DNA from: a virus
Strand: one strand, 5' to 3'
Length of the DNA stretch: 39,218 nucleotides
Virus record (IMG/VR): IMGVR_UViG_3300027746_001004
Span: 1 to 39,218 of that record
Shown: piece after piece, positions 18,559 through 35,360 of the stretch
How the letters are laid out: the number at the start of each line of letters is the position of its first letter
Numbering within the stretch: position 1 is the stretch's first letter
Made by a program: the position numbers and the translations under genes
Notes under the pieces: model-generated
What the model was told of the DNA's origin: nothing
Database searches by the model: none
What the model saw: the letters and a program-made list of their open reading frames with translations, nothing else

Positions 18559-18566
18559 TATTTATA
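18559..18566 (+). promoter_or_regulatory. Putative phage late promoter (TATTTATA)
   Basis: Exact TATTTATA in the 15-base gap between the sigma-factor gene and the first virion-type gene, ending only three bases before the ATG at 18570. Same motif and orientation as the elements at 22783, 30918, 33463 and 35353. A transcript starting six or seven bases downstream would begin at or just inside the start codon. Confidence 0.5.
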
Positions 18567-18569
18567 GAT

Positions 18570-18938
18570 ATGCCAAGACCACAACGTAAAGAAATTAATT
18601 TTACTAAAGATTCAATATTATCTTTAATGCAAGAAATATATAATGAACTTGTAGAACAAAGACAGACCGCAATAAGGATTCAAAATAAAATGTTAACAAT
18701 GTTAAAAGACCCTGAAGACATGACTACAATTGGACCCGTTATTGAAAAACAACAAAAAATTGTTAATGATTGTGTTGAGAAAAAAATTAGTTTATCCAAA
18801 TTACAATCGGGTATTTGGGAAAAATCAAATAATAACAATACCGAATCATTTTCGCTTGCGGATTTGGATGATGACTTAATTCAAAATCTAATTGACAAAG
18901 ATGTTTCTAACGATGAACAATCGTACAAAATGAAATAA
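18570..18938 (+). CDS. Hypothetical coiled-coil protein
   Basis: A 122-residue protein, not recognised. The N-terminal ~85 residues are strongly helical with heptad-like spacing (ILSLMQEIYNELVEQRQTAI, then IEKQQKIVNDCVEKKISLSK). The C-terminal ~35 residues are acidic and Asn/Asp/Ser-rich (LADLDDDLIQNLIDKDVSN). Its place behind a putative late promoter and directly before large virion-type genes suggests a small structural, chaperone or assembly protein. No enzymatic motif. Confidence 0.7.
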   Translation: MPRPQRKEINFTKDSILSLMQEIYNELVEQRQTAIRIQNKMLTMLKDPEDMTTIGPVIEKQQKIVNDCVEKKISLSKLQSGIWEKSNNNNTESFSLADLDDDLIQNLIDKDVSNDEQSYKMK

Positions 18939-18939
18939 T

Positions 18940-21042
18940 ATGGGAACAATTGTTGATTTAACGGAAGGATACGATTCTTCCCAAAGTAAAATCAGTTCAA
19001 TTAAAAATTATACTGAGGTTTCTAAATCTGCAAAAAAATTAAAAAGTAGTGCTGGAAATTCACAATCACCAGCAATACCAGATGTTGCATCACAATTAAA
19101 TAAAGTTGCTGACCAACAAAAACGATATTTAAGAAATCAACCAACGACATTTAACCAATTATTTGAATTGTTAAAATTATCAAGTGGCTCTGGTTCAGAA
19201 ACTTCAAGATATCTTAAGAAAAAATTATTAGAAACTGTAACTAAAATTGAGCCAGATATTAAAAAAATTATTAGTGAAGAAGCGTTAAAGGCATTAGGTT
19301 GTTCACAAGAACAAACATTTCAAGCTTTTACTTCCACAGATTTAGATGCTAATCCTTTAGAAACTTTACCTGTGGGACAAGGAATATACGTACCCATTCA
19401 ATCTATGGATATTGCTAGTATATTAAAAATATCCACAACTTCAAGAGTTGGTAAAGTAATATATGAAAAACAAACACCTAACGTACAAACGGGTAATTTC
19501 TTACCTTATGGAGGTATAAGACCATTTCCAATGAATAAAGAATTTAATCAAAGATTAACCGGTTCAAATTTTTCAAAATCATATAAGGGTGAATATGGTA
19601 AATATTATCAAGGTGTTTCAGGTCAAGATTTATTTGATTTTCAATATAGTCCAACAAACCAATTTGGGGTTGACCAAGCATGTTATAGAGTCGCATTAAT
19701 ATCAAAAGTAAATGCGACATCAACAGTAACTGGAGGTACCGTAAATAAAGTAATAGATTTATTACAAGATTATTACGGTACAATTAAATTAATAGATACT
19801 GTCGATTTTACCGCAACACTAATGAATATTGTTTCAGGTGCAATTGATATTAAAGCAAACTTGGGTAGCGAAGAGATTACAGAACAAACAAAGTTTTTAA
19901 TCTTTCTTCAAAGAATATTAGGTCTTTGTTTTGATTCAAGAAAAGAAATAGATGTTAGTGGGATTTCAAAAATTGCAGAGTTAGATGGTGTTGATGAAAC
20001 ATTTTTTGAAACAACAGAAGTCGATTTAAGAAATATTGACATAAGAATAAATAATATCCAAAATGGTATTATAGAACTTGTTGATTGCGATAATGTACAA
20101 GTACCCGTTGATTATGAAACAATAATTGATGAATTAATTGGGTTTCGAGATAAAGAAGATTTGTCAACCGAAGAACAAGTTCAAAATATTATTGATATTA
20201 CTAACACATTAGTTGAAAATCCCGATTGGAAAGTTTTTTTACCAACAAATTTTGATGGTCAAATTTTAAATCAAGAATTTATTAACCAAATCCCATTGGC
20301 AGTTGCTGGTTCAATTTTAAGTCCAAAAGTTTTATTTCCAATTTTTGTTTTATTACAAGTACTTGAAAGTCAAGGTACGAATGTTTATAACCAAGCGGTT
20401 ACATCCGCAAACACATATACTCAAAGCGCAAACACAATTAATGGTATCGTTAATAATATCATTAATAATCAAGTTGATTTTGCCAAAACATTCAAAACTT
20501 TTAACATCCAAGTAACATCAAGAGTTGGTTCAATTTTTATAGAACAACTTTTTCAAATATTAAAAAAAGATTTAATTAATCTTTTAAAACCTGTTATTAC
20601 AGATATTGCAAAAGGAAGATTAGAGAAAAAATATTTAACAGTTCAAAGATTAGTTAATATTGCATTAATTCTTCAACAAGTTGCAAGGGGGGTTAATGAT
20701 TATCGAAAATGTAAATCTTTAGTTGATGAAATTTTAAAAATACTAAATTTATTAAATAGTTTAGCACCTCCAGGTTCAAAAATACCAAACGCATTGTTAC
20801 TATTAACAGAGTTTTTACCGGGAACATCACCTGAAAGGTCAACTATTAATACAATAGAACAATTACAAAAACTTGGAATACCGACAGGTACTTTACCTGA
20901 TGGTTCACCAAATGTAATGTTATTATTTAACTTATCGGCAAACAAAGGGGCGGATAAAGAACAGGCAGAAAATGGAACTGCTGACTCATTTGGAGTAACA
21001 TCTGACGGAATGCTTGTTAAAAATTGGATAAAACCAAAATAA
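18940..21042 (+). CDS. Large putative virion structural protein, unknown
   Basis: A 700-residue protein not recognised by family. It has a Ser/Lys-rich start, a region around residues 125-250 with many Gly/Tyr/Pro turns (YVPIQSMDIASILKISTTSRVG, FLPYGGIRPFPMNKEFN), then long alternating helical segments (NIALILQQVARGVNDYRKCK and a leucine-rich NLLNSLAPPGSKIPNALLLL). No signal peptide. It is separated by one base from its neighbours on both sides and lies one small gene before the gp5-like gene, so a baseplate or tail role is the best contextual guess. Confidence 0.6.
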   Translation: MGTIVDLTEGYDSSQSKISSIKNYTEVSKSAKKLKSSAGNSQSPAIPDVASQLNKVADQQKRYLRNQPTTFNQLFELLKLSSGSGSETSRYLKKKLLETVTKIEPDIKKIISEEALKALGCSQEQTFQAFTSTDLDANPLETLPVGQGIYVPIQSMDIASILKISTTSRVGKVIYEKQTPNVQTGNFLPYGGIRPFPMNKEFNQRLTGSNFSKSYKGEYGKYYQGVSGQDLFDFQYSPTNQFGVDQACYRVALISKVNATSTVTGGTVNKVIDLLQDYYGTIKLIDTVDFTATLMNIVSGAIDIKANLGSEEITEQTKFLIFLQRILGLCFDSRKEIDVSGISKIAELDGVDETFFETTEVDLRNIDIRINNIQNGIIELVDCDNVQVPVDYETIIDELIGFRDKEDLSTEEQVQNIIDITNTLVENPDWKVFLPTNFDGQILNQEFINQIPLAVAGSILSPKVLFPIFVLLQVLESQGTNVYNQAVTSANTYTQSANTINGIVNNIINNQVDFAKTFKTFNIQVTSRVGSIFIEQLFQILKKDLINLLKPVITDIAKGRLEKKYLTVQRLVNIALILQQVARGVNDYRKCKSLVDEILKILNLLNSLAPPGSKIPNALLLLTEFLPGTSPERSTINTIEQLQKLGIPTGTLPDGSPNVMLLFNLSANKGADKEQAENGTADSFGVTSDGMLVKNWIKPK

Positions 21043-21043
21043 T

Positions 21044-21247
21044 ATGAAAAAAGAAGAATTTGAAAATATTGTAAATTTACAAAATAATTTGAAAGAACAA
21101 CCTAATTCAAAATTAATTGAGGCTATGGATATTTTAACCACTGATTTTGAGTTGACCAAAGAAAACATTATTAATTTAACAATGTATTTGGATAAACTTG
21201 AAGAACTATATAACAATACTCTTAAAGAGTTTCAATCTAGAAAATAA
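21044..21247 (+). CDS. Hypothetical small protein
   Basis: A 67-residue acidic helical protein (MKKEEFENIVNLQNNLKEQP opening; FELTKENIINLTMYLDKLEE later). Not recognised. One base after the 700-residue virion protein and overlapping the baseplate hub gene by one base (TAATG), so it is translated with them and is likely an accessory structural or assembly factor. Confidence 0.7.
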   Translation: MKKEEFENIVNLQNNLKEQPNSKLIEAMDILTTDFELTKENIINLTMYLDKLEELYNNTLKEFQSRK

Positions 21248-22782
21248 TGGATGATAATACAATATTTTTTCAGGTATCGGTTATAAGTAATCAAGACCCA
21301 ATGATGTTGGGTAGGATTCGAGCAAAACTTTTAATTGATAACTATAACGACATAGTCAAGTCAATTACTGACCCACCTTGGAATGAAGAAAAAGATATTT
21401 GGACGACAAGAGACCCTTTTGTCTTTAGTCCCCTTATGCCATATTTCATGTATCAAGTACCAAAGCCAACAGAAATGGCTCAAGTACTTTATGTGAATAA
21501 AGATTTTAAATATCAAAACCAATATTACGTCCAAAATACATTTTCAAGTCCGACAACAACGGGTTATGAATATTATCAAGGTGGTAATAAGTTTACAGGT
21601 ACAGGTACACAATTAAAAAATCCAAAACCTTTAAAAAACCAAGATGGTACTTATACCGACAAAGCGGTTCACAAGGGTGTATTTCCTGAGCCAGGTGATA
21701 ATGCCATTTTAGGTAGGGGAAGTGCCGATGTTATTACAAAACAAGATACGGTATTACTTAGAGCAGGTAAATTTAAAGGTGCTGAATTAGTACCAAATGT
21801 TCCACCTGTGGCAAACCAACAACGAGGATTTTTACAACTCTCAAGATTTAATCAATCAAAAGTACCATTACCAAATAAAATTGTAACAGAGACAAATGAA
21901 ATCGTAGTTCAAGTTAAATACTTAATTGAATGGGTTATCACAAATCCTGAAAACACCCAAGATAATTTTACTGGGTCAGTTTATCTTTATCAATTAAAAC
22001 CCGACCTATCGACAAACTCCACAAATTTAACAGTTGGTACAATTGTTAAAGAATCTTTAAAATCTTTAGTTGCCGAAGAAAAATTTTCACGATTAACAAA
22101 AACAGAAACTATTACATTTATAAATAATTTTATTAAAACGTGTAATACCAAAACAACAACCGTTTCAGGTAAAACATTATTTACAAGTGAACTTAATAAA
22201 TTTGCAATATTTTATAGACCAAATAATATAACTTATTCTGTTATAACACCATCATCAACCACTCAAACAGGAACAACCGAAGCGGACGCATTTAAAAATG
22301 TTTCTGACATATACAATCAAATTAAATTATACCCCGCCCTTAAACGAGGTGGTTATGGTTTAATTTATGCTAAGGATAAAGTTGGAAAACCACTTAACTT
22401 TAAAACAACTATTGTACCTCAGGAGACATACAAATCAATTCAAACCACATATGGAGCGGTTGGGGCGGATACTTTATATTTGTTATCTCATACGTCGGCA
22501 ATTCCTGGTAAAGGTAAAATCAATTTTGATGACACATTATATGGAATTTCATTAGACCAATTTGTTGATGAAATATTACCAAAAACATCAAGTTTAGTTA
22601 GAGGGGAAGAACTTTTAGAATTGATTAACTTGATTGTTAGATTCTTAATTACTCATACTCACGCATACCCTGGTTTACCTCCAGTTCCTGTAACTCAAGA
22701 CGGTTCAACTGTTACGGATATATTAACTGAAATGCAAAACGCCTACACAAAAATTCTTAATGAAAATATTAGACTTAACTAA
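21247..22782 (+). CDS. Baseplate hub/spike protein, T4 gp5-like OB-fold (no lysozyme domain seen)
   Basis: A 511-residue protein. The N-terminal FFQVSVISNQDPMMLGRIRAKLL (residues 6-28) matches the OB-fold start of gp5/Phage_base_V proteins (V....DP...GRVRVR.). FPEPGDNAILGRGSADVITKQDTVLLRAG (~142-170) resembles the 'P..GD...V...G....I.....VLLR' OB-fold end of baseplate hub proteins. A C-terminal LITHTHAYPGLPPVPV resembles the HTH..PG.P stretch near the ends of such proteins. The lysozyme domain found in T4 gp5 is not apparent. Its place at the centre of the virion block fits. Confidence in hub/spike role is moderate. Confidence 0.7.
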   Translation: MDDNTIFFQVSVISNQDPMMLGRIRAKLLIDNYNDIVKSITDPPWNEEKDIWTTRDPFVFSPLMPYFMYQVPKPTEMAQVLYVNKDFKYQNQYYVQNTFSSPTTTGYEYYQGGNKFTGTGTQLKNPKPLKNQDGTYTDKAVHKGVFPEPGDNAILGRGSADVITKQDTVLLRAGKFKGAELVPNVPPVANQQRGFLQLSRFNQSKVPLPNKIVTETNEIVVQVKYLIEWVITNPENTQDNFTGSVYLYQLKPDLSTNSTNLTVGTIVKESLKSLVAEEKFSRLTKTETITFINNFIKTCNTKTTTVSGKTLFTSELNKFAIFYRPNNITYSVITPSSTTQTGTTEADAFKNVSDIYNQIKLYPALKRGGYGLIYAKDKVGKPLNFKTTIVPQETYKSIQTTYGAVGADTLYLLSHTSAIPGKGKINFDDTLYGISLDQFVDEILPKTSSLVRGEELLELINLIVRFLITHTHAYPGLPPVPVTQDGSTVTDILTEMQNAYTKILNENIRLN

Positions 22783-22790
22783 TATTTATA
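22783..22790 (+). promoter_or_regulatory. Putative phage late promoter (TATTTATATT)
   Basis: TATTTATA extended to TATTTATATT lies in the 20-base gap between the gp5-like gene and the 507-residue virion gene, with 12 bases between the octamer and the ATG at 22803. Same extended form as the elements at 30918, 33463 and 35353 on the other strand. Confidence 0.55.
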
Positions 22791-22802
22791 TTAAAACAAT
22801 TA

Positions 22803-24326
22803 ATGTCAATTTTAAGGTCGTACATAGATAAGAACAATACCATCATTTCAAATTCATATGTCAATACGGGTAGAAACCCTATTGTTGAATTAAATTTTGG
22901 TGCGTCAGATTATATCATCCCAAATTATGGTTACACTCGTTTCCTATTTGATTTAGATTTAGATTTATTAAGAGAAGACATTGCATCAGGTGTAATTTCT
23001 ACAGGATGTACCACAGGTATGACTCACGTCTTACAAATGACAAACACCTCATCATTTGATAATGAATTGTTAAATACATTCATGTCAAACGAGAGAAGAC
23101 GAGCGACATCATTTGATTTAATCTTATTTAGAATTCCTCAAACTTCAGGAACAACAGGAATCCCTCAAACTTGGGATGAAGGTGTTGGTTATGATTACAC
23201 AGATTTTAATGAAAATCAAAATAGCCCGTATGGTGGTTCAACACCTCTTACGTATGTAGATAGTCGTGCCTATTCGACTCGACCATCAAATTGGTATCAG
23301 ACATCCACTATTAACAATTGGTCTCAACCAGGGGTTTATAACAACAAGAATGAAGGTACCGTAAATTTCTCAGGTTTAACAATTGTTGCAAGACAACACT
23401 TTGAACTTGGTAATGAAGATTTATTGATGGATATGTCAAATGAAATTAATGGTATATTAAATGGTACAATAACTGGTGTTACTGGTTGGGGAGTTGCATA
23501 CTTACCACAAATTGAAAATATTACAGGTTTAACTGACAGTTATAGTGTGGCGTTCTTTTCAAGACATACTCAAACATTTTACCAACCATTCCTTCAAACA
23601 ACATACGACGACTTAATTAAAGACAACCGTAACCTATTCTTAAAAAACCAAACAAATAAATTGTATTTATACATTTATCAAAATGGTGATTTTGCCAATT
23701 TAGATTCTGACCCTGTAGTTAGAATTGAAGACAGAAATGGTGATGCCGTTCCTGGTATGGCAACATTATCAACTTGTTTAAGAACAAGAGGAGTTTATGA
23801 AGTAATTGTACCTAATGGATTTACAGGGGCAACTCCTTGTATGTTTTATGATATATGGTCAGGTTTAACAATTAATGGTCAAGCATTACCAAACGTAACA
23901 AATCAATTTATATTACAACAATATACAGCAGGTATTCAAATCGGTTCAACATCCAAAGAACCAAGTAAATTTGGATTTGAGTTCTACGGTATTTTACAAA
24001 ACGAACAAATCCTTAATACCGATATTAGAAAGGTTGGGGTTACAATTAAAAAGGCTTATACGGGTCAAGCACCATTAGAAGATATCTCAGCATTTTATAG
24101 AGTATACGTTAGAGAAGGAACAACTGAAGTATTAGTTCAAGATTGGACGCCAGTTAACAGAACTCCAAATGAATATTATTTCATGTTTGATATGAGGGAT
24201 AAAATACCTAATCAATATTATGTTGATATTCAAGTGAACACTTCAGGAGAGAAAGATACTTATAAGAGACAATTAACTTTTAACATAGTAAATTACAAAA
24301 CAAATAATACATCATTCAGACAATAA
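22803..24326 (+). CDS. Putative virion structural protein, unknown
   Basis: A 507-residue beta-rich protein, not recognised. It opens MSILRSYIDKNNTIISNSYV and is rich in Thr, Asn, Gly, Tyr and Trp (SRAYSTRPSNWYQTSTINNW, GTITGVTGWGVAYLPQIENI), as in tail, neck or fibre proteins. The last ~120 residues (KKAYTGQAPLEDISAFYRVY, MFDMRDKIPNQYYVDIQVNT) look like an immunoglobulin-like or fibre-attachment beta sandwich. It has its own putative late promoter 12 bases upstream, and one base separates it from the next gene. Capsid decoration, neck or tail fibre are all possible. Confidence 0.65.
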   Translation: MSILRSYIDKNNTIISNSYVNTGRNPIVELNFGASDYIIPNYGYTRFLFDLDLDLLREDIASGVISTGCTTGMTHVLQMTNTSSFDNELLNTFMSNERRRATSFDLILFRIPQTSGTTGIPQTWDEGVGYDYTDFNENQNSPYGGSTPLTYVDSRAYSTRPSNWYQTSTINNWSQPGVYNNKNEGTVNFSGLTIVARQHFELGNEDLLMDMSNEINGILNGTITGVTGWGVAYLPQIENITGLTDSYSVAFFSRHTQTFYQPFLQTTYDDLIKDNRNLFLKNQTNKLYLYIYQNGDFANLDSDPVVRIEDRNGDAVPGMATLSTCLRTRGVYEVIVPNGFTGATPCMFYDIWSGLTINGQALPNVTNQFILQQYTAGIQIGSTSKEPSKFGFEFYGILQNEQILNTDIRKVGVTIKKAYTGQAPLEDISAFYRVYVREGTTEVLVQDWTPVNRTPNEYYFMFDMRDKIPNQYYVDIQVNTSGEKDTYKRQLTFNIVNYKTNNTSFRQ

Positions 24327-24327
24327 T

Positions 24328-24789
24328 ATGAAAACAGTAAAATTAACCGAATCAGACTTAAACAGAATTGTTAAAAAAGTTCTTTCAGAACAAGACGAAA
24401 CGAATTATATGTTCTTTTCAAATTTAAAACAGATGAAAAGACAACTTGAAATGATTATGGAGATGGACCCATCAACAGTTGACCAAATACTTCAAAATGG
24501 ACATGATTGGGCAGATGACCATATATCCGAAGCCAAAACAAATATTGACCAAGTTTTTGATTTCTTAAAAAATGAAATGGAAAAAGAATCACAATATGTT
24601 GATTTTGAAGAAATGAATGAAGGTAGAAAAAAAACAGGAACTCCACTTTGTGCAAGAGGTAAATCTGCCGCCAAATCAAAATATACTGTTTATCCATCAG
24701 CATACGCTAACGGATATGCCGTTCAAGTATGTAAGGGTAAAATCAAAGGATTGGACGGTAAAAGACAGTGCTCTGGAGCTTATTGTTAA
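24328..24789 (+). CDS. Putative internal head protein with capsid-targeting-like N terminus
   Basis: A 153-residue protein. The first ~21 residues form an amphipathic helix that begins MKTVKLTESDL and ends KKVLSE before Q22. The ending fits the [I/L]-x-E cleavage rule of T4 prohead protease, and T4 internal head proteins have similar removable MKT-starting leaders. The scaffold protein encoded at 29337 has a near-copy ending LVKESLSEQDDEN. The C-terminal 50 residues hold four cysteines in LCARGKSAAKSKYTVYPSAY...VCKGKIKG...CSGAYC, a signature I associate with hypothetical proteins of T4-like marine phages. The structural-cargo role is inferred. Confidence 0.6.
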   Translation: MKTVKLTESDLNRIVKKVLSEQDETNYMFFSNLKQMKRQLEMIMEMDPSTVDQILQNGHDWADDHISEAKTNIDQVFDFLKNEMEKESQYVDFEEMNEGRKKTGTPLCARGKSAAKSKYTVYPSAYANGYAVQVCKGKIKGLDGKRQCSGAYC

Positions 24790-24803
24790 TTTTTTTATAT
24801 CAG

Positions 24804-24837
24804 TTGTTTTTTTATTTAAAGTTTTTGTTTACTTTTG
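24804..24837 (+). promoter_or_regulatory. Bacteroidetes-type sigma promoter (TTG-N23-TACTTTTG)
   Basis: TTG at 24804-24806 and TACTTTTG at 24830-24837 with a 23-base spacer fit the flavobacterial consensus TTG-N(17-23)-TAnnTTTG. The transcript would begin a few bases later and reach the ATG at 24859 with a ~15-base leader lacking a Shine-Dalgarno sequence. The element differs from the phage TATTTATA motif, so the gene pair 24859-25562 is probably read by the unmodified host polymerase early in infection. Confidence 0.55.
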
Positions 24838-24858
24838 TAGTCAAATAAAAATACACAT

Positions 24859-25260
24859 ATGAATCTTTCACCACACAACTTAAAACGCGCAATTCAAAAA
24901 TGGTACATTTCTTTAGTTAGATTATCAACTCCACCTATGCAAAAATCGGAATATGAGAGAGATTGTATTTCTATTTGTAAAAAACTTATCGATAAAGAAG
25001 AAACCATTTTATTATTAACCCCAATTTCTAATAAACGTTACATTAGAAATGAAGAACATCAAATATTTGTTATTTTAGAGGGTAACAACGTTAAGGTAAT
25101 TAACCACGTATATTCTTATACGGTTTTTTTAGAAAAAAATTGTTGGGAAAATCTTGTATCTATGTTTGATAATGAGGTAGAAAAACGTAGAGAAATTTTT
25201 GAAAAAGAAATTACGTCAAACATTAAACATTCACTTCAAAATATATTACATAGCATCTAA
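24859..25260 (+). CDS. Hypothetical protein behind a host-type promoter
   Basis: A 133-residue protein, not recognised. It starts MNLSPHNLKRAIQKWYISLV (basic amphipathic helix), contains a mixed alpha/beta middle (IFVILEGNNVKVINHVYSYT) and ends in a long charged helix (FDNEVEKRREIFEKEITSNI). Two cysteines (DCISICKK) lie near residue 37. It is overlapped by one base by the next gene. The upstream promoter of bacterial type suggests early or constitutive expression, perhaps in host take-over, but no function can be assigned. Confidence 0.7.
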   Translation: MNLSPHNLKRAIQKWYISLVRLSTPPMQKSEYERDCISICKKLIDKEETILLLTPISNKRYIRNEEHQIFVILEGNNVKVINHVYSYTVFLEKNCWENLVSMFDNEVEKRREIFEKEITSNIKHSLQNILHSI

Positions 25261-25562: not shown

Positions 25563-26247
25563 ATGTTTTATATTCATTAAGAACATTTTTTATTACGTCC
25601 TTTAATGATTCATTTTTTGGTTTGTAAGATACCATAGTTGGTTTATTACCTGTACCAACTTTTGGGTCTTTTTTCTCTTCTTTTCTTTTTTGAGCACACG
25701 CAGATTTCTTTTCAGAATCACTCATTTTAGATGCAACCCCTGCGGCTCTACATTTTGGATATCCTTTATCTGAAGATTCAGGTCTTCCACATGGTGGGTG
25801 ACCACCACCTTCTTTTTTTCTACAAATATTAACCCAAGGACCTTTTGGTTGTGACGAACCTTTTGGTTTTTTCTTTGTTCCAAACCAAACAGCTAAATCT
25901 TCTTTAAGTGGTCCAACCGCTTGTTGTATGATTTTCTCAGGGTCTTCAATATCCGCAACATTACTCCCATCTTCATCATTTTGACCAGTATAGAAACTTT
26001 TTAGGTATCTATCCACTTGAGCAATTCTATCTGTCCTTTTTTCTATTCGAGCTCGTTCTTCAGGTGTTTCTTTAAAATCACCGTCAGCTTCTTCATATGC
26101 CAACTCTGCATTATTATAACTATAAACAGGATTAGTAAATGGTGCAACTTGGTCTTCTGTCCACGGTTGTGGAGATAATACTATTGGTACTTTGAAGTTT
26201 CCCGCACTTCCCGAACCTGTGGCTTCACTAATTCTATTTCTTTTCAT
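25555..26247 (-). CDS. Cys-rich putative head protein with gp21-type cleavage site at residue 8
   Basis: A 230-residue protein. It opens MKRNRISE-ATGSG; ISE before Ala matches the T4 prohead-protease rule and mirrors the protease's own start (MKQLRILE-A). Residues ~125-190 include WFGTKKKPKGSS, WVNICRKKEGGGHPPCGRP and GYPKCRAAGVAS, a Cys/Lys/Gly pattern I recall from the DUF5872-type domain found in phage and giant-virus proteins; not verified. The C terminus SLKDVIKNVLNEYKTSI is an amphipathic helix like those in the scaffold. A TATTTATA motif lies eight bases upstream. A DNA-binding internal head protein is the inference. Confidence 0.6.
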   Translation of the reverse strand: MKRNRISEATGSGSAGNFKVPIVLSPQPWTEDQVAPFTNPVYSYNNAELAYEEADGDFKETPEERARIEKRTDRIAQVDRYLKSFYTGQNDEDGSNVADIEDPEKIIQQAVGPLKEDLAVWFGTKKKPKGSSQPKGPWVNICRKKEGGGHPPCGRPESSDKGYPKCRAAGVASKMSDSEKKSACAQKRKEEKKDPKVGTGNKPTMVSYKPKNESLKDVIKNVLNEYKTSI

Positions 26248-26255
26248 ATACTTAC

Positions 26256-26263
26256 TATAAATA
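26256..26263 (-). promoter_or_regulatory. Putative late promoter, TATTTATA (minus) / TATAAATA (plus)
   Basis: In the 31-base gap between divergent genes. On the minus strand TATTTATAGT lies eight bases before the ATG at 26247. On the plus strand the same bases read TATAAATA, 15 bases before the ATG at 26279. Because the two strands read as the motif of this phage and that of T4 respectively, the element might serve either gene. Confidence 0.5.
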
Positions 26264-26278
26264 TATCGTTAATACATT

Positions 26279-26485
26279 ATGGAACAAGAAAAACAACCAA
26301 TCGCCTTTCTATTTGAGGACGTTGCAATATACAAACCTGAAGATATTGAAAATCTAATAGATAACTTAACAGAAGAACAGGCAAAATTTATGTTAATTAG
26401 AGCCGTTCAAATGGCATATAAGAATGGATTATATTCGTTAACCGAATCTGAAATTGTTTCTAAATCACTTAGAATGCTAAAATAA
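26279..26485 (+). CDS. Hypothetical small protein
   Basis: A 68-residue acidic protein, not recognised: MEQEKQPIAFLFEDVAIYKP, then two helices (IENLIDNLTEEQAKFMLIRA, ESEIVSKSLRMLK). It is flanked upstream by the divergent TATAAATA/TATTTATA element and downstream by a strong bidirectional terminator, so it is a single-gene transcription unit. Confidence 0.7.
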   Translation: MEQEKQPIAFLFEDVAIYKPEDIENLIDNLTEEQAKFMLIRAVQMAYKNGLYSLTESEIVSKSLRMLK

Positions 26486-27400: not shown

Positions 27401-27408
27401 AATAAATA
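27401..27408 (-). promoter_or_regulatory. Putative late promoter (TATTTATT, one mismatch)
   Basis: On the minus strand TATTTATTATT lies between the capsid-gene terminator and the zinc-ribbon gene, differing from TATTTATA at the last base. If it starts transcription, the leader to the ATG at 27294 is about 100 bases, unusually long for this phage. Confidence 0.4.
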
Positions 27409-27465: not shown

Positions 27466-27486
27466 GGTATCTAAATAAGATATTGA

Positions 27487-29292: not shown

Positions 29293-29336
29293 TTTAGTAT
29301 TTGTTTTGTTTTTAAGTTTATTTTATTTTTATTTTT

Positions 29337-30896
29337 TTAACCTAATTTACCCATTAAGTCCTTCATTCTTAAGAATTGAGGATTTTCATAAGTTTTTGAT
29401 TCAATTAGAGTTGTTGATGAACCTGTAGAAACTGATTTGTTTAGTTTTGTTGCTACCGATTCGTTAATTGATTTTGTATCCACAGTATTTAATTCGTCTT
29501 TGATTGACTTATAAAGATTTTTAGATTCTTTTAAAGTTTCAACATCATCGAATCTTCTTAGGATGTTTATTTTTTCTTTTTTAGTGGTTGAGTGCTCTGT
29601 GAACAATCTTGTTGCGTAAGCTAAGTTTGAATTAAAGATTGCAACTTCGTTAAGTTTTTCTCTAAACACATTCAATGCTTTTCTGTACTCTTCATTCTTT
29701 TCTCTCAACATTCTAACTTCTTCTGAAGTAGTTGATTCAACTTTAACACCATTTTTACCATAAACATAGTTTCTGTTATTTGTGATGCCTTTTCTTAATC
29801 CTCTACCTTCTTTGGAACCCATTCCGTATGTTCTAGCTGCTTCTTTTGTTTCAGTTTTTTCAAAAGCTTTTTCTCCTTTAGAATTTGTCATACCTTTTTT
29901 AGTAGTGTAATCTTCTTTACCTTTCATGGTTTTAGATTTATCACCTCTATTCATTCCGTAATCACCTTCTTTAGTTTCTGCTTTAACAACTTTGGATTTA
30001 CCTCCCATATTTTCACCTTTCTTGTATTCAAATTTTGCTTTACCAGTACCAACTGATTTAGGACCTACTTTTTTCTTTTCATCAAATCCGCCTTTAGCTT
30101 TATCTTTGTAAGAAAATTTAGGACCTGAGCCCATTCCAACACCTTTAGGTTTGTAAGTTTCATTTGTTAAATCGTCCATGTCATCTTCTTCCCTCATTTC
30201 TGAATCATCCATCATTTCGTCATCATCATCGTCCATCATTTCGTCATCATCATCGTCCATCATTTCGTCATCATCATCGTCTAAAGTTATTTCATAAACA
30301 ACTTCTTCTTCATCGTCAAAATCTTCAACATCTGATGAATCACCATTATCAGAGAAAATAGCGTTAATAACGTCATCAACAGATTCATCTCGTTCGTCGT
30401 AATTCATATCGTCTTCTTGCATTAATTCGTCTTCTTCAGACTCACCAAGCTTAACAAGATATTCTACGTCAGCATCATCATCAGTTAAATGAACGTTTTC
30501 ACCATCTTTTTTTACAATGATACCGTCATCTTCACCCATAGCTTTGAATACTTTCAAGATTTCCTCGTCAGAAGCGTCAGTTAAATCTATTGGACTTTCT
30601 TCTGAATCCATGTCCATATCCATGTCAACATCCATATCCATATCCTCTTCATCAGAGTCCATGTCCATATCTGTATCGATATCCATTTCCATTTCATCGT
30701 TATCAGCATCCGTATCAACGTCTGCATCTAAATCAATCTCATTTTCATCATCCTGTTCAGAAAGAGATTCTTTTACTAATTGGTTGATTTCTTCCTTCAT
30801 AGTTGAAGCAAGTATTCCTTTTGCATTTTCGGCTATAGCTTCTTCAACTTGTCTCATTTGAATAAGAGCCTCTTGGACTAATTTGTTTTCTTTCAT
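29337..30896 (-). CDS. Acidic prohead scaffold/core protein (gp22-like position)
   Basis: A 519-residue, extremely acidic protein. The N-terminal ~48 residues are helical (KLVQEALIQMRQVEEAIAEN, EEINQLVKESLSEQDDEN). Residues ~50-245 are dominated by Asp/Glu/Met runs (DMDMDxD and DDDDDEMM repeats). Residues ~250-385 are Lys/Gly-rich with repeated GKAKFEYKKGENMG-like units. The C-terminal ~130 residues are coiled coil (EVRMLREKNEEYRKALNVFR). It sits between protease and capsid genes exactly as T4 gene 22, and its many LxE sites suit proteolytic removal. No sequence family assigned with certainty. Confidence 0.7.
   Translation of the reverse strand: MKENKLVQEALIQMRQVEEAIAENAKGILASTMKEEINQLVKESLSEQDDENEIDLDADVDTDADNDEMEMDIDTDMDMDSDEEDMDMDVDMDMDMDSEESPIDLTDASDEEILKVFKAMGEDDGIIVKKDGENVHLTDDDADVEYLVKLGESEEDELMQEDDMNYDERDESVDDVINAIFSDNGDSSDVEDFDDEEEVVYEITLDDDDDEMMDDDDDEMMDDDDDEMMDDSEMREEDDMDDLTNETYKPKGVGMGSGPKFSYKDKAKGGFDEKKKVGPKSVGTGKAKFEYKKGENMGGKSKVVKAETKEGDYGMNRGDKSKTMKGKEDYTTKKGMTNSKGEKAFEKTETKEAARTYGMGSKEGRGLRKGITNNRNYVYGKNGVKVESTTSEEVRMLREKNEEYRKALNVFREKLNEVAIFNSNLAYATRLFTEHSTTKKEKINILRRFDDVETLKESKNLYKSIKDELNTVDTKSINESVATKLNKSVSTGSSTTLIESKTYENPQFLRMKDLMGKLG
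30210..30281 (-). repeat. 24-bp tandem repeat, three perfect copies, inside the scaffold gene
   Basis: Three consecutive identical 24-base units (30210-30233, 30234-30257, 30258-30281) encode the eight-residue unit DDDDDEMM on the minus strand. In-frame length means copy number can change without frameshift. Partial degenerate units continue on both sides (ATCATCCATC, CGTCTAAAG). Confidence 0.9.
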
Positions 30897-30917
30897 GAAA
30901 ATCTATTATTTTTACAA

Positions 30918-30925
30918 TATAAATA
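30918..30925 (-). promoter_or_regulatory. Putative phage late promoter (TATTTATATT)
   Basis: On the minus strand TATTTATATTG lies 21 bases before the ATG of the scaffold gene (30896), within the intergenic gap. It would transcribe scaffold and capsid together, as no matching motif precedes the capsid gene itself. Confidence 0.6.
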
Positions 30926-31003
30926 GTGTCAAATAATAAAAAATTCACTTTTAGGGTAACACAATCTTAATTTTATTTTATGTAAAAAATTCGGAGCATA
31001 AAA

Positions 31004-31027
31004 AAAGTGGTCGATTATGACCACTTT
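31004..31027 (-). terminator. Rho-independent terminator upstream of scaffold gene
   Basis: Perfect 9-base stem AAAGTGGTC / GACCACTTT with a 6-base loop; on the minus strand it is followed by TTTTTTTATG. It ends the transcript of the protease/small-protein genes (31051-31989) before the scaffold-capsid unit begins. The rest of the 154-base gap is AT-rich with only the promoter motif. Confidence 0.85.
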
Positions 31028-31050
31028 AATTTAATTTGTTTAAAATTTAA

Positions 31051-31260
31051 TTATTCGATTACCTCATCAATTTTACTTTCTGATACTGAAGTAATTCTCC
31101 AATCATTTGTAAACCCTTGGTATTTTTCCGTAACCTTTGCTTCGACATCTGTTACTGAAAAACCTTTAACTAATTTCTCTTCTCTGATTTTTTTGATTTT
31201 ACCAGTATTCTCATCAGGTAAGTCATACTGAATTTTCGCTACAAAATATTTTTCGTCCAT
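31051..31260 (-). CDS. Small protein, DUF4494-like
   Basis: A 69-residue protein: YFVAKIQYDLPDENTGKIKK, REEKLVKGFSVTDVEAKVTE, then DWRITSVSESKIDEVIE. This 'V.....DE.GK.KK..E.YLV...S.TEAEA....' layout resembles DUF4494, a small protein of Bacteroidetes and their phages; the assignment is from memory. It lies six bases after the protease stop and just before a terminator, so it is made with the protease. Function unknown; the alpha/beta layout suggests a compact adaptor. Confidence 0.65.
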   Translation of the reverse strand: MDEKYFVAKIQYDLPDENTGKIKKIREEKLVKGFSVTDVEAKVTEKYQGFTNDWRITSVSESKIDEVIE

Positions 31261-31266
31261 AATTTA

Positions 31267-31989
31267 TTATTTTCCCAAATAATCGGTTAATTTTCTCATT
31301 AAGTCAACTCCTTTAGTTTGAAATTCCGAATTTTCAGGTGATTTGTATTTTTTTTCTTCTTCCAAGTTCTCTTCGTACTTATCTCTATCATCAGGATTCG
31401 TAAATAAATAAGCTCCTGGTGTTGATGGAGATGATACCAAATCAAAACAGATTAATTCAAAATCGTCTTGTACTTCATTTCTTTCACCAACCTTTTTCAA
31501 CGAACCTACACCTCTTGAAGAAACACCCATAGTAACACCTTGTCTCATTAAGTTAGCTGCTTGGTCTCCTTTAGTGGAAACAATACCTCTTTCATGAAAA
31601 CCTGGCGATGTTAACAATTTAAGTTTACCCATTAAGATATTTCTATCCCACCATATCTCTGTGATGATGTGAGATACCCTATCTAAGTCAATTAAAGACG
31701 ATTCAGGGTGATTAAGTTCTGAAGTGGATAAACCCTTTTCAATTGCTTTTTGATAGTTTATTGCTTCTCTCTTTAATATTCTTTCAGGATAAAATCTTCC
31801 GTTTCTATTTGGTGTATCGTATTTTTGTAATACCGCATAAAATTCAAAAGGATTTCTATAATCTAACTCCTTTGCTTCTCTTAACATCTCGGCGTTACGA
31901 ATATCTTTTGGTGATATCCAACCTGCGTCGGTTTCAACCAATATTCCATGACCTACTTCGCTTGCTTCTAAAATTCTTAATTGTTTCAT
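31267..31989 (-). CDS. 21: Prohead core protease, T4 gp21-like
   Basis: A 240-residue serine protease of the herpesvirus-assemblin-like fold. KYDTPNRNGRFYPERIL (56-72) is the conserved N-terminal block. ELNHPES at 91-97 supplies the catalytic His94, and VTMGVSSRGVGSL at 152-164 supplies the catalytic serine (S157/S158). DFELICFDLVSSPSTPGAYL at 176-195 is the conserved strand pair (V.DVV..PS.P.A). It cuts head proteins after [I/L]-x-E during maturation. Its own start, MKQLRILE before Ala9, is a plausible self-cleavage site. A TATTTATC element lies 13 bases upstream. Confidence 0.93.
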   Translation of the reverse strand: MKQLRILEASEVGHGILVETDAGWISPKDIRNAEMLREAKELDYRNPFEFYAVLQKYDTPNRNGRFYPERILKREAINYQKAIEKGLSTSELNHPESSLIDLDRVSHIITEIWWDRNILMGKLKLLTSPGFHERGIVSTKGDQAANLMRQGVTMGVSSRGVGSLKKVGERNEVQDDFELICFDLVSSPSTPGAYLFTNPDDRDKYEENLEEEKKYKSPENSEFQTKGVDLMRKLTDYLGK

Positions 31990-32002
31990 GAATTCTTTTT
32001 AA

Positions 32003-32010
32003 GATAAATA
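32003..32010 (-). promoter_or_regulatory. Putative late promoter (TATTTATC, one mismatch)
   Basis: On the minus strand TATTTATCTT, 13 bases before the protease ATG at 31989, in the 45-base gap after the 143-residue hypothetical gene. It differs from TATTTATA at one base. Confidence 0.4.
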
Positions 32011-32034
32011 TACGATATTACTATCTTTTTAATA

Positions 32035-32466
32035 TTAATCGTTTTTAGAAGGTGAAAATTCGAAGTATTTGTTTTGGATTACATTCTCTTTAACTATGTT
32101 TTTAATGATTGCTTTAACCGAATCTTTTATTTCAGGACATTTAAAATCTATTTCATTGTTGGTATATAAATTAACCTCTAAGTTTAAAAAAGATTTTTTA
32201 CCGTGTGAAATACCACTTGTCCTAAGGTCCAAATCAACTATACTTTGTTCTTTAAATAATTCGTGGTTTATTGAGTTGAATACCGAATGTTTAATATCTC
32301 GGCTAAGATTACAAACAACTCTATTCCAATTGTTATGTTCAAATTTAGGTGTTACCCATGATTGTATGTTAATGTATAATGATTTTAAATTTTTTGAATC
32401 TACTGTTCCGTAGACAGATTTAATTGGATTATACAGATTTAACTTTACACTTTTTCCTTTTTTCAT
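32035..32466 (-). CDS. Hypothetical protein in the head module
   Basis: A 143-residue protein, not recognised. A basic start (MKKGKSVKLNLYNPIKSVYG) leads into SLYINIQSWVTPKFEHNNWN, then SFLNLEVNLYTNNEIDFKCP, with alternating strands, and a helical C terminus (VKAIIKNIVKENVIQNKYFE). The strand pattern and two Lys-rich ends give no enzymatic signature. It lies between portal and protease where T4 has the prohead core genes 67 and 68, but it shows no acidic core-protein composition. Confidence 0.7.
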   Translation of the reverse strand: MKKGKSVKLNLYNPIKSVYGTVDSKNLKSLYINIQSWVTPKFEHNNWNRVVCNLSRDIKHSVFNSINHELFKEQSIVDLDLRTSGISHGKKSFLNLEVNLYTNNEIDFKCPEIKDSVKAIIKNIVKENVIQNKYFEFSPSKND

Positions 32467-32488
32467 TAAGTTTCATATTGTCAATGTT

Positions 32489-32496
32489 TATTTATT
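32489..32496 (+). promoter_or_regulatory. Weak late-promoter-like element upstream of bS21 gene
   Basis: TATTTATT on the plus strand, one mismatch from TATTTATA, 69 bases before the ATG at 32566. A second near-match, TATTTGTATT, directly abuts the start (32554-32563). Either could express the isolated plus-strand bS21 gene; neither is convincing alone. Confidence 0.3.
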
Positions 32497-32565
32497 TGTT
32501 AAAATAATAATAAAAATTAGTTCTATTGTCAAAAACTTTCTGAAATATTAAGATATTTGTATTAT

Positions 32566-32754
32566 ATGTTAAAAGTAGATGTAAAAAAAGATGGGATAGA
32601 AAGGGCCCTAAAGACATTAAAGTCAAAAGTAATTAAAACTAAACAAAATCAGATGTTGTTTGGTAAAAAAGAATTTGTTAAAAAGTCGGTGGAAAGAAGA
32701 CAACAAAAGTTGAAAGCTTCTTACGTTCAAAAGATGAAATCTAAATTAGATTGA
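32566..32754 (+). CDS. rpsU: Ribosomal protein bS21 homologue
   Basis: From the ATG at 32566 the protein is 62 residues (an upstream in-frame TTG at 32557 would add MYY). MLKVDVKKDGIERALKTLKS, then KKEFVKKSVERRQQKLKASY, matches bS21: a V....... IERAL...K first helix, an FxKPSx-RR-xxKA second part and an AxYVQK end as in Bacteroidetes versions. bS21 sits on the 30S subunit near the anti-Shine-Dalgarno sequence. It is the only plus-strand gene inside the minus-strand head module, and its end overlaps the convergent gene by nine bases. Host-ribosome modification in favour of phage mRNAs is the inferred role. Confidence 0.9.
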   Translation: MLKVDVKKDGIERALKTLKSKVIKTKQNQMLFGKKEFVKKSVERRQQKLKASYVQKMKSKLD

Positions 32755-33447
32755 TTCTTCTAAGTTCTTTAACTTAAGGAAATTAAGTTGGTCAAATTTT
32801 TCAACTTTCAATCTATCAATTGTTTCAGACAATTTTGTCTTAATTTCAAATTCATTTTCGTTTTCTAATAGAGTGTTCAATTTAGAGATTGTACTTTCTT
32901 TTAAAGTTTCAAATTTTTCTTGAAGTAATGAAGTATCTTCAGACATTAATTGGATGAATTCTTTTTTGGTTGATTCGTCAAGATTATCAAGATAACCCTT
33001 CATTGTTTGGTTTGCAATACTAACCATAGATTTTAAAGGAATATTAATTGATTCCTTTATAGTTTCAGGTTTTTGTGAAACCAATGTCTTAATCAAAGTC
33101 TTCTTTGATTGAACTCTTTCCATTAAATCCAATTTGTTAGTATAAACTAACGAATCAATATCAGAATATTTGTTTGAAACATTCTCATATGTTGTTTTTG
33201 GTGTTTTAATTGTTGGCACCAATTTTTGAATTAAGGTAATCCCTTCTTCCAAGAAATCTTTTGCATCGGCTTCGGTTAATCCTTGAGGTGTAGTTAATTG
33301 GTCGTATAAAGAATATAATTTTGACATATTCTTATTGTTCAAAACATTATGTTTGAACTCTTTTAACGATTTTTTAAATTCCTGCTCATTTTTGTAGGAT
33401 TCTAATAAATTGTTTTCAATTATGGATTTAATTTGTCCGAAAGTCAT
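32746..33447 (-). CDS. Hypothetical helical protein adjacent to portal (prohead-core candidate)
   Basis: From the ATG at 33447 the protein is 233 residues (a TTG at 33462 lies too close to the promoter motif). It is almost wholly helical and charged: FGQIKSIIENNLLESYKNEQ at the start, SMVSIANQTMKGYLDNLDES in the middle, EIKTKLSETIDRLKVEKFDQ at the end. Its opening amphipathic helix with LLE resembles leaders of other head proteins here. It is next to the portal gene, in the position of T4 gene 67. It may be a core or portal-associated protein; no family recognised. Confidence 0.65.
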   Translation of the reverse strand: MTFGQIKSIIENNLLESYKNEQEFKKSLKEFKHNVLNNKNMSKLYSLYDQLTTPQGLTEADAKDFLEEGITLIQKLVPTIKTPKTTYENVSNKYSDIDSLVYTNKLDLMERVQSKKTLIKTLVSQKPETIKESINIPLKSMVSIANQTMKGYLDNLDESTKKEFIQLMSEDTSLLQEKFETLKESTISKLNTLLENENEFEIKTKLSETIDRLKVEKFDQLNFLKLKNLEESI

Positions 33448-33462
33448 TTTGTCTATTTTCAA

Positions 33463-33470
33463 TATAAATA
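33463..33470 (-). promoter_or_regulatory. Putative phage late promoter (TATTTATATT)
   Basis: On the minus strand TATTTATATTG, 15 bases before the ATG at 33447, in the small gap after the portal stop codon. Same extended sequence as the elements at 22783, 30918 and 35353. Confidence 0.55.
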
Positions 33471-35324
33471 TTACGAATTTAGTAACTTATCCAATTCTTT
33501 TGAAATTTCTCCCAAAGAATCTTGACCTTGATTCAAATTTAAAAATCTTGATTTTTCTGCAAAATTATTTTCTAATAAAATATTCATATTTGCTCTTTTA
33601 GATTCAGGTGTTACTTCACCTGCTGGTGGCGGTGCTGTTTCACCTCCTGCTGGTGGAGCTTCTTCACCTGCTGGTGGTGGAGCTGTTTCAAAACCTCCTC
33701 CTCCAAATGATGGTACGGCACCCGTATTTTCACTATCTGTAGTTGTCGCAGCATTTGCAGTTGACCCAGACGGATTACCATATAACTTATCAATATTATC
33801 AAATAATCCTGTTTTGGTAATAACTGTCGGAGTTGCTTTAAGTTCCTCTCCAACAGCTCTTTCAATTCTTTGTTGTTGTAAATCCAATCTGATTTCTTCA
33901 TCAGACCAGTTAAAGATATGTTTCTTAGCCCAAGTTGATGATGTAGGTTGAATACCATTTCCTGGGTCGGCAACCAAATCTTTATACAATAACACTTTTT
34001 CTTTCCATACGTCAATTTTTAATAAATCGGCTTGTGTTGATGGATTAGATAAACCTAATGTAAAGTTTTGTAATTCATCTTCAAATCCTAATAAAAATAA
34101 GTGAACAATTGCAATTTTATTTAACTCGGCAATCATACTTTTTTGAATTCTGTTGATTGTACGAGCAAAACGGATATCTTGTAATGATAAGTTTTTACCA
34201 TCACCAACAACTTCTTCAAATCCTAAGAATGCCTTAGGAACACGAAGTGCGGTTAATAATTTCTTTTGGATATATTCAATATCGGCAATTTCTGATAAGT
34301 TTGTAGCTCCGGGTAATGTTGTAATTGGGTCTGGTGCTGCAGGGTCACGAACTGGAATGAAGTAATCTTGGTCAACCGCCATTTGGTTGAATCTCATATC
34401 TACGTTTCCTGTTTTAGCGTCCACAATTTGTTCTCTTTTAAATTTGTTCGCAACACGGTTTACGTATGCTTCAACATCATCGTCATTCATGTTACCCACA
34501 AACACTTTAAACATTCTTCTTTCAGGTGCTCTTGATGTACGATAGATTAACATGGCATCTTCTGATAACAATAACTGTTTCCAAATACGTCTTGCTTTTT
34601 CTAACATTGATGTACCATATGGAAGTTTTCTGTCATCACCTAATAATCTAAAGTGAGCAATCTCCCATGATTGGAATTCCATGTTTCTGTTTTTCCAAGT
34701 AAAGTGAAGAGCCTTCTTATTCTGGTCTTGTTCCTGTGTGATATCCACAGTAATCTTAGCGGTTACACCAACCTCATGACGTTCAATTTCAATTGTTGGT
34801 AATTGTTGACAACCAACAATACCTTTTTCAGGGTCTAATTTCATATAAACAAAATTATCACCATACTTACAAGTGTTTCTTGTCCACATTGGTAAGTTAG
34901 TATTGATGTCAAGGGCATTGTTAAATAAATCAGCTAATACTGATTTAATTCTTTTTGACTCAGAATAAATTTGAAGAATAAAACCATCTTCATTTGTTGT
35001 TGTAGATTCTTCAGAATAAATGTCTAATGCTGCAGAAATTTCAGGAGTATATTCCATCGATTCATAATCATACTGAGCAGATAATCTTGATGGTTCATAA
35101 TAAATCGCTTGAGAATATAAGTTGTTTTCAACTTTAGCCCATTGATTTGTTAAATAAAATGTTTGTTGTGCTTGAAGTTTTTCTCTCTCATAATCATCAC
35201 GATTTGGCGTACGCAGAAGTTCTTTTTTATCAAACTTAAAAGTCGGATAGTCCTGTTTCAACAGTGAATTTGGGCCGAATGTTTGCGATAGCCTCTGCCA
35301 GACCGTTAGATTTTGTTCACTCAT
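33471..35324 (-). CDS. 20: Portal protein, T4 gp20-like
   Basis: A 617-residue portal protein. The N-terminal QAIYYEPSRLSAQYDYESMEYTPEISAALDIYSEE (from ~68) matches the gp20 pattern 'R..R...Y..M...PEI..A.D...NE'. WTRNTCKYGDNFVYMKL follows near 147. SWEIAHFRLLGDDRKLPYGTSMLEKARRIWKQLLLSEDAMLIYRTSRAPERRMFKV, in the 220s to 270s, is the most conserved portal block. The protein forms the dodecameric DNA gate at a capsid vertex. The C-terminal ~80 residues are a Pro/Ala/Gly/Glu tail with PPAGE-like repeats, followed by MNILLENNFAEKSRF. A late promoter motif lies 28 bases upstream. Confidence 0.93.
   Translation of the reverse strand: MSEQNLTVWQRLSQTFGPNSLLKQDYPTFKFDKKELLRTPNRDDYEREKLQAQQTFYLTNQWAKVENNLYSQAIYYEPSRLSAQYDYESMEYTPEISAALDIYSEESTTTNEDGFILQIYSESKRIKSVLADLFNNALDINTNLPMWTRNTCKYGDNFVYMKLDPEKGIVGCQQLPTIEIERHEVGVTAKITVDITQEQDQNKKALHFTWKNRNMEFQSWEIAHFRLLGDDRKLPYGTSMLEKARRIWKQLLLSEDAMLIYRTSRAPERRMFKVFVGNMNDDDVEAYVNRVANKFKREQIVDAKTGNVDMRFNQMAVDQDYFIPVRDPAAPDPITTLPGATNLSEIADIEYIQKKLLTALRVPKAFLGFEEVVGDGKNLSLQDIRFARTINRIQKSMIAELNKIAIVHLFLLGFEDELQNFTLGLSNPSTQADLLKIDVWKEKVLLYKDLVADPGNGIQPTSSTWAKKHIFNWSDEEIRLDLQQQRIERAVGEELKATPTVITKTGLFDNIDKLYGNPSGSTANAATTTDSENTGAVPSFGGGGFETAPPPAGEEAPPAGGETAPPPAGEVTPESKRANMNILLENNFAEKSRFLNLNQGQDSLGEISKELDKLLNS
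33617..33677 (-). repeat. Degenerate proline-glycine repeat in the portal tail
   Basis: Three near-copies of CACCTGCTGGTGG (33617-33629, 33641-33656 with a 3-base insertion, 33665-33677) encode PPAGG/PAGE-type repeats on the minus strand. The tail is low-complexity and probably flexible. Confidence 0.7.
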
Positions 35325-35352
35325 ATTACAATTTTACTAATTACTTTGATAA

Positions 35353-35360
35353 TATAAATA
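35353..35360 (-). promoter_or_regulatory. Putative phage late promoter (TATTTATATT)
   Basis: On the minus strand TATTTATATTAT, 28 bases before the portal ATG at 35324, immediately after the terminase stop codon. Perfect octamer in the extended form. Confidence 0.6.

Follow-up and report, generated by a model that had tools for sequence, protein, structure and literature searches.

A directional TATTTATA box as a probable late promoter of far-T4 phages, with two spacing classes that point to leaderless mRNAs

One of the closest described systems to the element reported here is the late promoter of phage T4, with its box TATAAATA and the proteins gp55, gp33 and gp45. A similar element, the octamer TATTTATA, is present upstream of genes in a 39-kb virus record (IMGVR_UViG_3300027746_001004; 39,218 nucleotides (nt), the whole stretch analysed, called the window below), which is probably a fragment of a larger virus genome. 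Like the T4 box, TATTTATA is an AT-only, -10-type box of 8 bp that is accompanied by a gp55-related sigma factor and precedes virion genes. The two differ in the middle AA of the T4 box, which is TT here on the non-template strand, in their place (-13 to -6 in T4, predicted at -12 to -5 here) and in their distance to the start codon, since all 18 T4 upstream boxes are at least 13 nt away from the ATG. The sigma factor also differs from T4 gp55, as about 90 residues at its C terminus form an additional helical domain. Regarding the partner proteins, gp45 was not identified here in a PF02916 search, but that search is uninformative, since T4 gp45 was its single hit in nine records and Syn19 was missed too; for gp33 no search was made.

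The sigma A promoter of the Bacteroidota offers a second comparison. Its -7 box, TAHHTTTG, is followed 4 or 5 nt later by the start site in the Flavobacterium johnsoniae promoters judged probable (PMC6847099), and in F. psychrophilum it is placed at -12 to -5 (PMC9723704). It resembles TATTTATA in being an octamer, in its probable place and start distance, and in its split into short and long gaps in the phages studied here. However, it differs in sequence, and the mapped hosts use few leaderless mRNAs: the reported figures are 5.5% of mRNAs in F. psychrophilum (PMC9723704) and 3.7% of leaders shorter than 10 nt in B. thetaiotaomicron (PMC7366714). The third comparison is with the leaderless TA-led genes of Actinobacteria, Deinococcus-Thermus and others, where the box lies about 12 nt before the start codon; the present phages probably have Bacteroidota hosts, whereas that survey gives leaderless genes for one of 37 Bacteroidetes/Chlorobi genomes (PMC3160421). 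Leaderless phage mRNAs are already known, AR9 transcripts being described as 'often leaderless' (PMC5312081). In the open literature (subscription papers and preprints lie outside this scope), the titles and abstract starts of the papers listed mentioned neither a phage with a TATTTATA late box nor leaderless mRNAs of Bacteroidota phages, and no text paired 'Flavobacterium phage' with 'late promoter'. The words promoter, sigma and gp55 are absent from the main text of the far-T4 genome paper (PMC4360716).

The interpretation that fits the present data best, with a probability of roughly 0.8, is that TATTTATA serves the far-T4 group as its late promoter box on the non-template strand, that it is read by the gp55-like sigma factor and that mRNAs from boxes lying 3-4 nt before the ATG are leaderless. 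The gp55-like sigma would recognise the octamer ahead of late genes while bound to the host RNA polymerase. The box would occupy the place of the Bacteroidota -7 box (about -12 to -5), and transcription would begin from an A four or five bases beyond it. Where the ATG stands exactly at the start site (a gap of 3-4 nt), the mRNA would be leaderless; otherwise the ATG would usually lie at least about 11 nt downstream, giving an A-rich leader, and leaders of about 1-7 nt would be avoided. Host sigma A would transcribe some genes, probably early ones, from TAHHTTTG.

Placement and direction of the octamer

Counts were made in the window and in five relatives, G001, G003, G005, G007 and G011, which have at most 4% of their 24-mers in common with each other or with the window; these six sequences are pooled below as the group. 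G006, contained in G003, was removed after the 24-mer comparison, and earlier upstream-word and intergenic tallies of individual genomes still list it; pieces of the window (L001-L008) were excluded from one of the counts. Genes were called by an ATG-only longest-open-reading-frame (ORF) script, so that some starts are wrong, a problem that a separate gene-call-free scan avoids. Upstream regions shorter than 12 nt were excluded from the gap, TAHHTTTG and same-direction counts, the cut-off being 10 nt instead in the upstream 8-mer scans and in the window upstream test. Same-direction intergenic regions were used for strand counts, which avoids counting divergent regions twice.

The first-pass annotation of this DNA had listed exact copies of TATTTATA on the coding strand before the genes at 18570, 22803, 26247, 30896, 33447 and 35324. 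All six are present, 3-28 nt from the ATG, and four of them extend to TATTTATATT, as had been noted. The one-mismatch copy listed before 31989 was also found (TATTTATC, 32003-32010), but that before 27294 was not, the nearest upstream copy lying at 27401-27408. Four of the ten exact copies in the window remain, and these are off-pattern: those at 3265 and 23664 are within genes, that at 22119 (minus strand) is antisense in a gene and that at 9260 (minus strand) is intergenic on the wrong strand.

The simplest alternative is that AT-rich intergenic DNA yields any TA-rich octamer by chance. The totals in the window are in line with it, as 10 exact copies compare with 8.28 expected and 28 of 100 shuffles reach 10, and copies with at most one mismatch show no enrichment (159, under the shuffle mean of 174). 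Totals over the whole window or genome were rejected as a test, the window total being near chance and the signal lying in placement. Six coding-strand upstream copies in the window stand against a simulated mean of 0.61 and a maximum of 4, no run out of 2000 Markov-2 runs reaching 6, and the same-direction regions of the window alone hold five copies on the coding strand and one on the other. Over the group, 183 upstream copies compare with a Markov-2 mean of 26.8 and a maximum of 45 in 200 runs; both simulations are conservative since they were trained on the motif-containing pooled upstream regions themselves. In addition, the AT-only control octamer ATATAATT is mostly found within genes (8 of 61 copies intergenic in G001). 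Another control, the backwards word ATATTTAT, was rejected as unfair because it overlaps the motif. The first-pass claim that the upstream copies exceed chance AT-richness is therefore borne out by placement and not by the window total, and chance is left with practically no probability.

The direction of the box follows that of the gene, as had been proposed. In pooled same-direction intergenic regions of the group, coding-strand copies outnumber opposite-strand copies by 140 to 14, and the ratios are 23/6 in immuto and 13/3 in Mel-JY01. T4 and Syn19, the controls, are oriented oppositely (0/11 and 0/6), which again speaks against chance. The T4 word TATAAATA occurs 14 times on the coding strand of the same regions of the group, versus 140 for TATTTATA. 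Equal frequency on the other strand or inside genes, named by the first-pass annotation as the outcome contrary to its proposal, was found neither in the window nor in the relatives: intergenic copies make up 61 of 81 in G001, 37 of 54 in G005, 61 of 92 in G003, 35 of 52 in G007, 21 of 25 in G011 and 7 of 10 in the window, in six genomes whose intergenic share of sequence is 4-9%.

The motif discovery suggested at the same time gave a concordant result. In an unbiased scan of upstream 8-mers, TATTTATA ranks first in the window and G007, second in G001 and G011 and third in G003 and G005. Its coding-strand, other-strand and Markov-expected counts are 52/12/5.9 in G001, 54/17/9.2 in G003, 29/8/4.1 in G005, 25/6/4.7 in G007, 18/4/2.0 in G011 and 6/2/0.8 in the window. 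The same scan gave 15/3/2.7 in Mel-JY01 (rank 8) and 25/8/3.0 in immuto, where the octamer is not within the nine top words; for TATAAATA it gave 18/7/2.2 in T4 and 6/0/0.5 in Syn19. No obvious -35 partner word appeared in the scans, and among the 14 bases preceding the box no position exceeds 0.5 bit in the relatives, a logo that stops short of -35.

The relation to the T4 box had been described as a flip of the preferred strand. The relation stands, but not the wording, since on the non-template strand the motif differs from TATAAATA only at the middle two positions. Because TAT..ATA is its own reverse complement, turning the box round is on paper the same as changing the middle AA to TT. 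The box is directional in T4 as well as in this group, so that altered sigma recognition of two bases would be the simpler description.

The association with late genes was examined in immuto, an annotated and cultured phage of Flavobacterium sp. LMO8 with the full name immuto_2-6A, among genes hand-named from the annotation whose upstream region measures 12 nt or more. Virion or lysis genes account for 14 of these, and 9 of the 14 have the exact octamer before them (terL, portal, tail sheath, tube, baseplate hub, tape measure, tail spike and two tail-fibre genes); it stands before none of the six other named genes, those for SSB, DnaB helicase, GroES, sigma, primase and PhoH (hypergeometric p of about 0.01, calculated by hand). 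The UvsX/RecA, polymerase, thymidylate synthase and NrdA genes of immuto also have no octamer, with upstream regions shorter than 12 nt. Judged from its annotation, TATTTATA is thus placed before virion genes in immuto in the way of a T4-type late promoter. In the window, the box precedes the portal gene and the one-mismatch box the protease gene.

Distance from the box to the start codon

The distances between the end of the box and the ATG fall into two classes, which the first-pass annotation had not mentioned and which point to leaderless mRNAs. Among the 183 pooled boxes, 50 stand at a gap of 3 nt (23 boxes) or 4 nt (27 boxes), against 0.84 simulated for the two together. One box has a gap of 1 nt, gaps of 5 to 10 nt are found in only 11 (3, 3, 0, 3, 1 and 1, respectively) and the other 121 boxes have gaps of 11 nt or more, with a second hump at 11-16 nt. 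The gene-call-free scan gave 27 and 30 of 314 sites at gaps 3 and 4, with one GTG and no TTG there, and no TATAAATA at these gaps. For the looser form TATTTATH, 122 of 333 boxes have a gap of 3-5 nt. From these proportions, a quarter to a third of the boxes probably give leaderless mRNAs.

The gap class appears to be mostly conserved between orthologues. The short-gap genes number 127; orthologues in a second genome of the set were found for 74, and for 61 of these 74 the alignment begins within the first five residues of both proteins. Among 192 orthologue pairs of short-gap genes, which are not independent, as is also true of the long-gap pairs, 136 are short-gap in both, 15 are long-gap, 30 have no box and 11 are other cases; 260 of 303 pairs of long-gap genes are long-gap in both. 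In two regions, G001 188-206 kb and G003 249-286 kb, the proteins of several short-gap genes start like MKYIITESxxxxL and apparently form a paralogue family.

The gene directly after the sigma gene is a clear example. It was located in 76 of 80 related loci; of these, 70 have TATTTAT at a gap of 3 nt, five at 2 nt and one at 4 nt. In the window the box at 18559..18566 (plus strand) stands between the two genes, 3 nt before the ATG at 18570, and is a predicted leaderless late promoter. The gene, 18570..18938 (plus strand), encodes a 122-aa protein, function unassigned, whose translation from a leaderless mRNA is predicted; five orthologues with 88-95% identity, whose alignments begin at M1, support its start codon. 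In all 25 immuto-like loci tested (of 80), TATTTAT also separates the sigma gene from its downstream neighbour, whose start codon is about 9-16 nt away from it, so the box there would be an old arrangement. The neighbour in the same 25 loci encodes a protein close in size to the 122-aa one, and comparison of the two profiles gave an E-value of 0.0014 and a probability of 18%.

The published Bacteroidota box behaves in the same manner in the phage upstream regions. TAHHTTTG, searched for on its own, has a gap of 4 in 32 of 114 cases and gaps of 9-13 in one, with a second hump from 14 nt. By the box-to-start distance of Flavobacterium, a gap of 4 would make the A of the ATG the start site. Long-gap TATTTATH promoters have no start codon to constrain these bases; in them A reaches 82% at offset 5 with shoulders at 4 and 6, and the host-type box has a local A peak of 60% at offset 5. 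This A peak at offsets 4-6 suggests that the box lies at -12 to -5. Shine-Dalgarno-like tetramers are rare upstream of the phage genes (4 of 233 in G001; 79 of 133 in T4), and the Bacteroidota are described as a phylum without Shine-Dalgarno sequences (PMC6847099). The host-type box, the near absence of these tetramers and the host of immuto together point to a Bacteroidota host.

The same rarity of Shine-Dalgarno-like tetramers, with many copies ending 3-4 nt before the ATG, would also suit a translation-start element of mRNAs of the Bacteroidota type instead of a promoter. However, a second class of boxes lies 11-25 nt upstream, a known host promoter box splits into the same two classes, and the box genes of immuto are enriched for virion genes. 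Moreover, a terminator-like hairpin with a T run closely precedes 9 of 50 short-gap boxes, compared with 5 of the 91 boxes with long gaps and 16 of 462 controls, so in those short-gap cases there would be little room for a leader. A translation element is accordingly considered quite unlikely. A DNA or RNA site for replication, packaging or RNA processing would not account for the preferred distances to the ATG, the A peak at the expected start and a direction that tracks the gene, and it is very unlikely.

If the promoter interpretation holds, one promoter type may serve two fixed translation regimes, one leaderless, gene-specific and conserved and the other leadered, on host-type and late promoters alike, with leaderless use far above that of the hosts and possibly favouring phage mRNAs late. 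This idea is tentative and is given less than even odds. The spacing pattern predicts late mRNAs with no leader. Some of these would be made by a cultured Flavobacterium phage, and the phylum concerned has few leaderless mRNAs.

The gp55-like sigma factor as candidate reader

The ORF at 17805..18554 (plus strand) encodes a gp55-like sigma factor of 249 aa, with sigma region 2 at residues ~25-130 and the additional helical domain at ~158-249. It had been named as the likely reader of the motif; its kinship with gp55 is supported, and its role as reader is inferred. The single matches are weak or modest and together are consistent with this kinship. The ORF matches PHROG 234 'late sigma factor' weakly (E-value 6e-4), and in each of G001, G003, G005, G007 and immuto the single match of this family is the gp55-like ORF. 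A hidden Markov model (HMM) of the window sigma family found ORFs in immuto (5e-13), LR756508 (2e-11) and Mel-JY01 (1e-10); the gp55-like protein of immuto is immuto26A_153. Annotated T4 gene 55 scored 0.009. When the model was extended with the members from these three phages, an ORF of RM378 scored 4e-12 and T4 gp55 1e-3; a Syn19 ORF fell just under the inclusion threshold, and the same ORF is named by PHROG 234. A second immuto ORF (24566-24991) gave a weak sigma-profile score, with E-values of 0.011 and then 0.0055 with the extended profile.

The structure model (pLDDT 71) aligns with T4 gp55 (7d7c_F) over 122 residues with a Z of 9.8 and an rmsd of 3.6 A, tied with region 2 of sigma E; middling Z values are common among helical models. 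A Foldseek search of the sigma model gave no match below an E-value of 0.001, and protein P0001 had no sequence match in the PDB. The C-terminal domain modelled alone reached a pLDDT of 82, with sigma-4 chains among its best matches. The idea that it is sigma region 4 stalled at a Z of about 5 in the libraries tested.

It could be argued that the box is read by host sigma A or by another phage sigma factor instead of the gp55-like protein. The box and the host -7 octamer have T1, A2, T5 and T7 in common and probably the same place, and G001 (291736-292332, minus strand) and G003 (54733-55332, minus strand), both above 300 kb, have a second sigma gene, whose product is of the canonical sigma-70 type and contains regions 2 and 4. 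On the other hand, the host consensus almost always has TTTG, which TATTTATA does not contain, and no second sigma turned up in the window, G005, G007, G011, immuto or Mel-JY01, several of which are fragments. A gp55-like ORF is recognised by these searches in each genome examined, including all six of those just listed. Another reader is considered unlikely, though it has a real share of the probability, and the likely reader of TATTTATA is inferred to be the gp55-like sigma.

Several observations weigh against the interpretation as a whole. Regarding the reader, the second sigma of the two larger relatives is a possible alternative there, and PHROG 234 matches nothing in Mel-JY01 or RM378. 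LR756508 has a sigma of the same type, and in 220 of its 484 kb neither octamer is enriched (1 and 1), which also favours another reader; sigma type and motif, as far as this partial sequence indicates, are not strictly linked. RM378 has TATTTAAA/TTATTTAA in place of TATTTATA, and in a clade whose sigma is 57-65% identical to that of immuto, TATTTATA gives 69/42 and the strongest form is CTATTTAT, with 78/5. Regarding late genes, the window capsid gene has no box, the GroES and PhoH genes of immuto (2 of the 6 non-virion genes) carry TATTTAT with a different last base, and most immuto replication genes have less than 12 nt upstream and so are a weak test. Regarding spacing, the box at 26256..26263 (minus strand), with a gap of 8 nt to the ATG at 26247, lies inside the sparsely occupied range of 5-10 nt and violates the rule; only 3 of 25 immuto boxes, and none in Mel-JY01, which has a cyanobacterial host, are at gaps 3-4. 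The gap-4 genes of immuto lie at 10527, 142474 and 74579, the last with an annotated start at 74474. As for the start site, the T4 box position of -13 to -6 (PMC2988020) would put the start at a gap of 5 and not 3-4, the host-type box is A-rich also at offsets 9-10, and immuto upstream regions contain no TAHHTTTG.

Taking both sides together, the first-pass observation was mostly right, and its late-promoter and gp55 interpretation has the support of the sequence data and extends to a phage group: the box is directional, mostly intergenic and placed before virion genes in immuto, and a gp55-like sigma is encoded, with the flip of strand and the site before 27294 as the parts that did not stand. 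The specificity of the T4-type late sigma would then seem to have changed across the T4 supergroup, offering natural sigma/box pairs for studying shifts in -10-type recognition.

The window, its remaining sites and other upstream words

The capsid, portal, protease and terminase genes of the window match PHROG head and packaging families, and its major capsid protein (MCP) is of the T4 gp23 kind by its best named matches. Among the best 20 of 2482 records, these are LR756508 (an uncultured 484-kb phage), Mel-JY01 (a Microcystis phage) and immuto at 42-45%, RM378 (a Rhodothermus phage) at 35% and cyanophages at 31-33%; T4 itself is not among the 20. The name far-T4 is used for the group on the basis of these capsid matches. 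At the DNA level, positions 17805-25000 have no close named relative, with a single match of 117 bp. The sigma ORF matches at least 580 stretches in IMG/VR, the best 80 at 79-94% identity and on contigs up to 321 kb.

The remaining sites of the window are in the long-gap class. On the plus strand, TATTTATA(TT) at 22783..22790 lies 12 nt before the ATG at 22803. On the minus strand, the extended form is found at 30918..30925, 21 nt before the ATG (30896) of the gene for a 519-aa protein between the protease and major capsid genes, at 33463..33470, with a gap of 15 nt to the ATG at 33447, and at 35353..35360, followed after 28 nt by the portal gene ATG (35324), a spacing that recurs in G005 and G001. 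The one-mismatch site at 32003..32010 (minus strand) lies 13 nt before the ATG at 31989 of the head maturation protease gene.

Other upstream words were seen in the relatives. In RM378 (L182-L188), 9 of 35 TATTTAAA sites have the ATG of a frame of at least 50 codons 5 nt on, and these genes are possibly leaderless too. The immuto-like phages (L223-L238; immuto itself, L163-L171) have a repeated upstream element, TTTAGGTATCAATAATTAA, pieced together from overlapping words, which is perhaps an early promoter of their own type; its part TTTAGGTA occurs 49 times in L223-L238 versus once on the other strand. Further strongly one-sided upstream words, likewise from overlapping 8-mers, are AATAAAGGTT and TTCGTATATT in L239-L302. 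One-sided words that contain GC, for example ACTTCAGG and TCAGGAAC in G005 and TCTTCAGG in G011, are perhaps terminator arms.

Finally, a block of sugar-biosynthesis and glycosyltransferase genes occupies positions 3721-17805 of the window, with UDP-glucose dehydrogenase, aminotransferases, an epimerase and glycosyltransferases, and is flanked by exonuclease/dUTPase genes on one side and by the sigma gene on the other.

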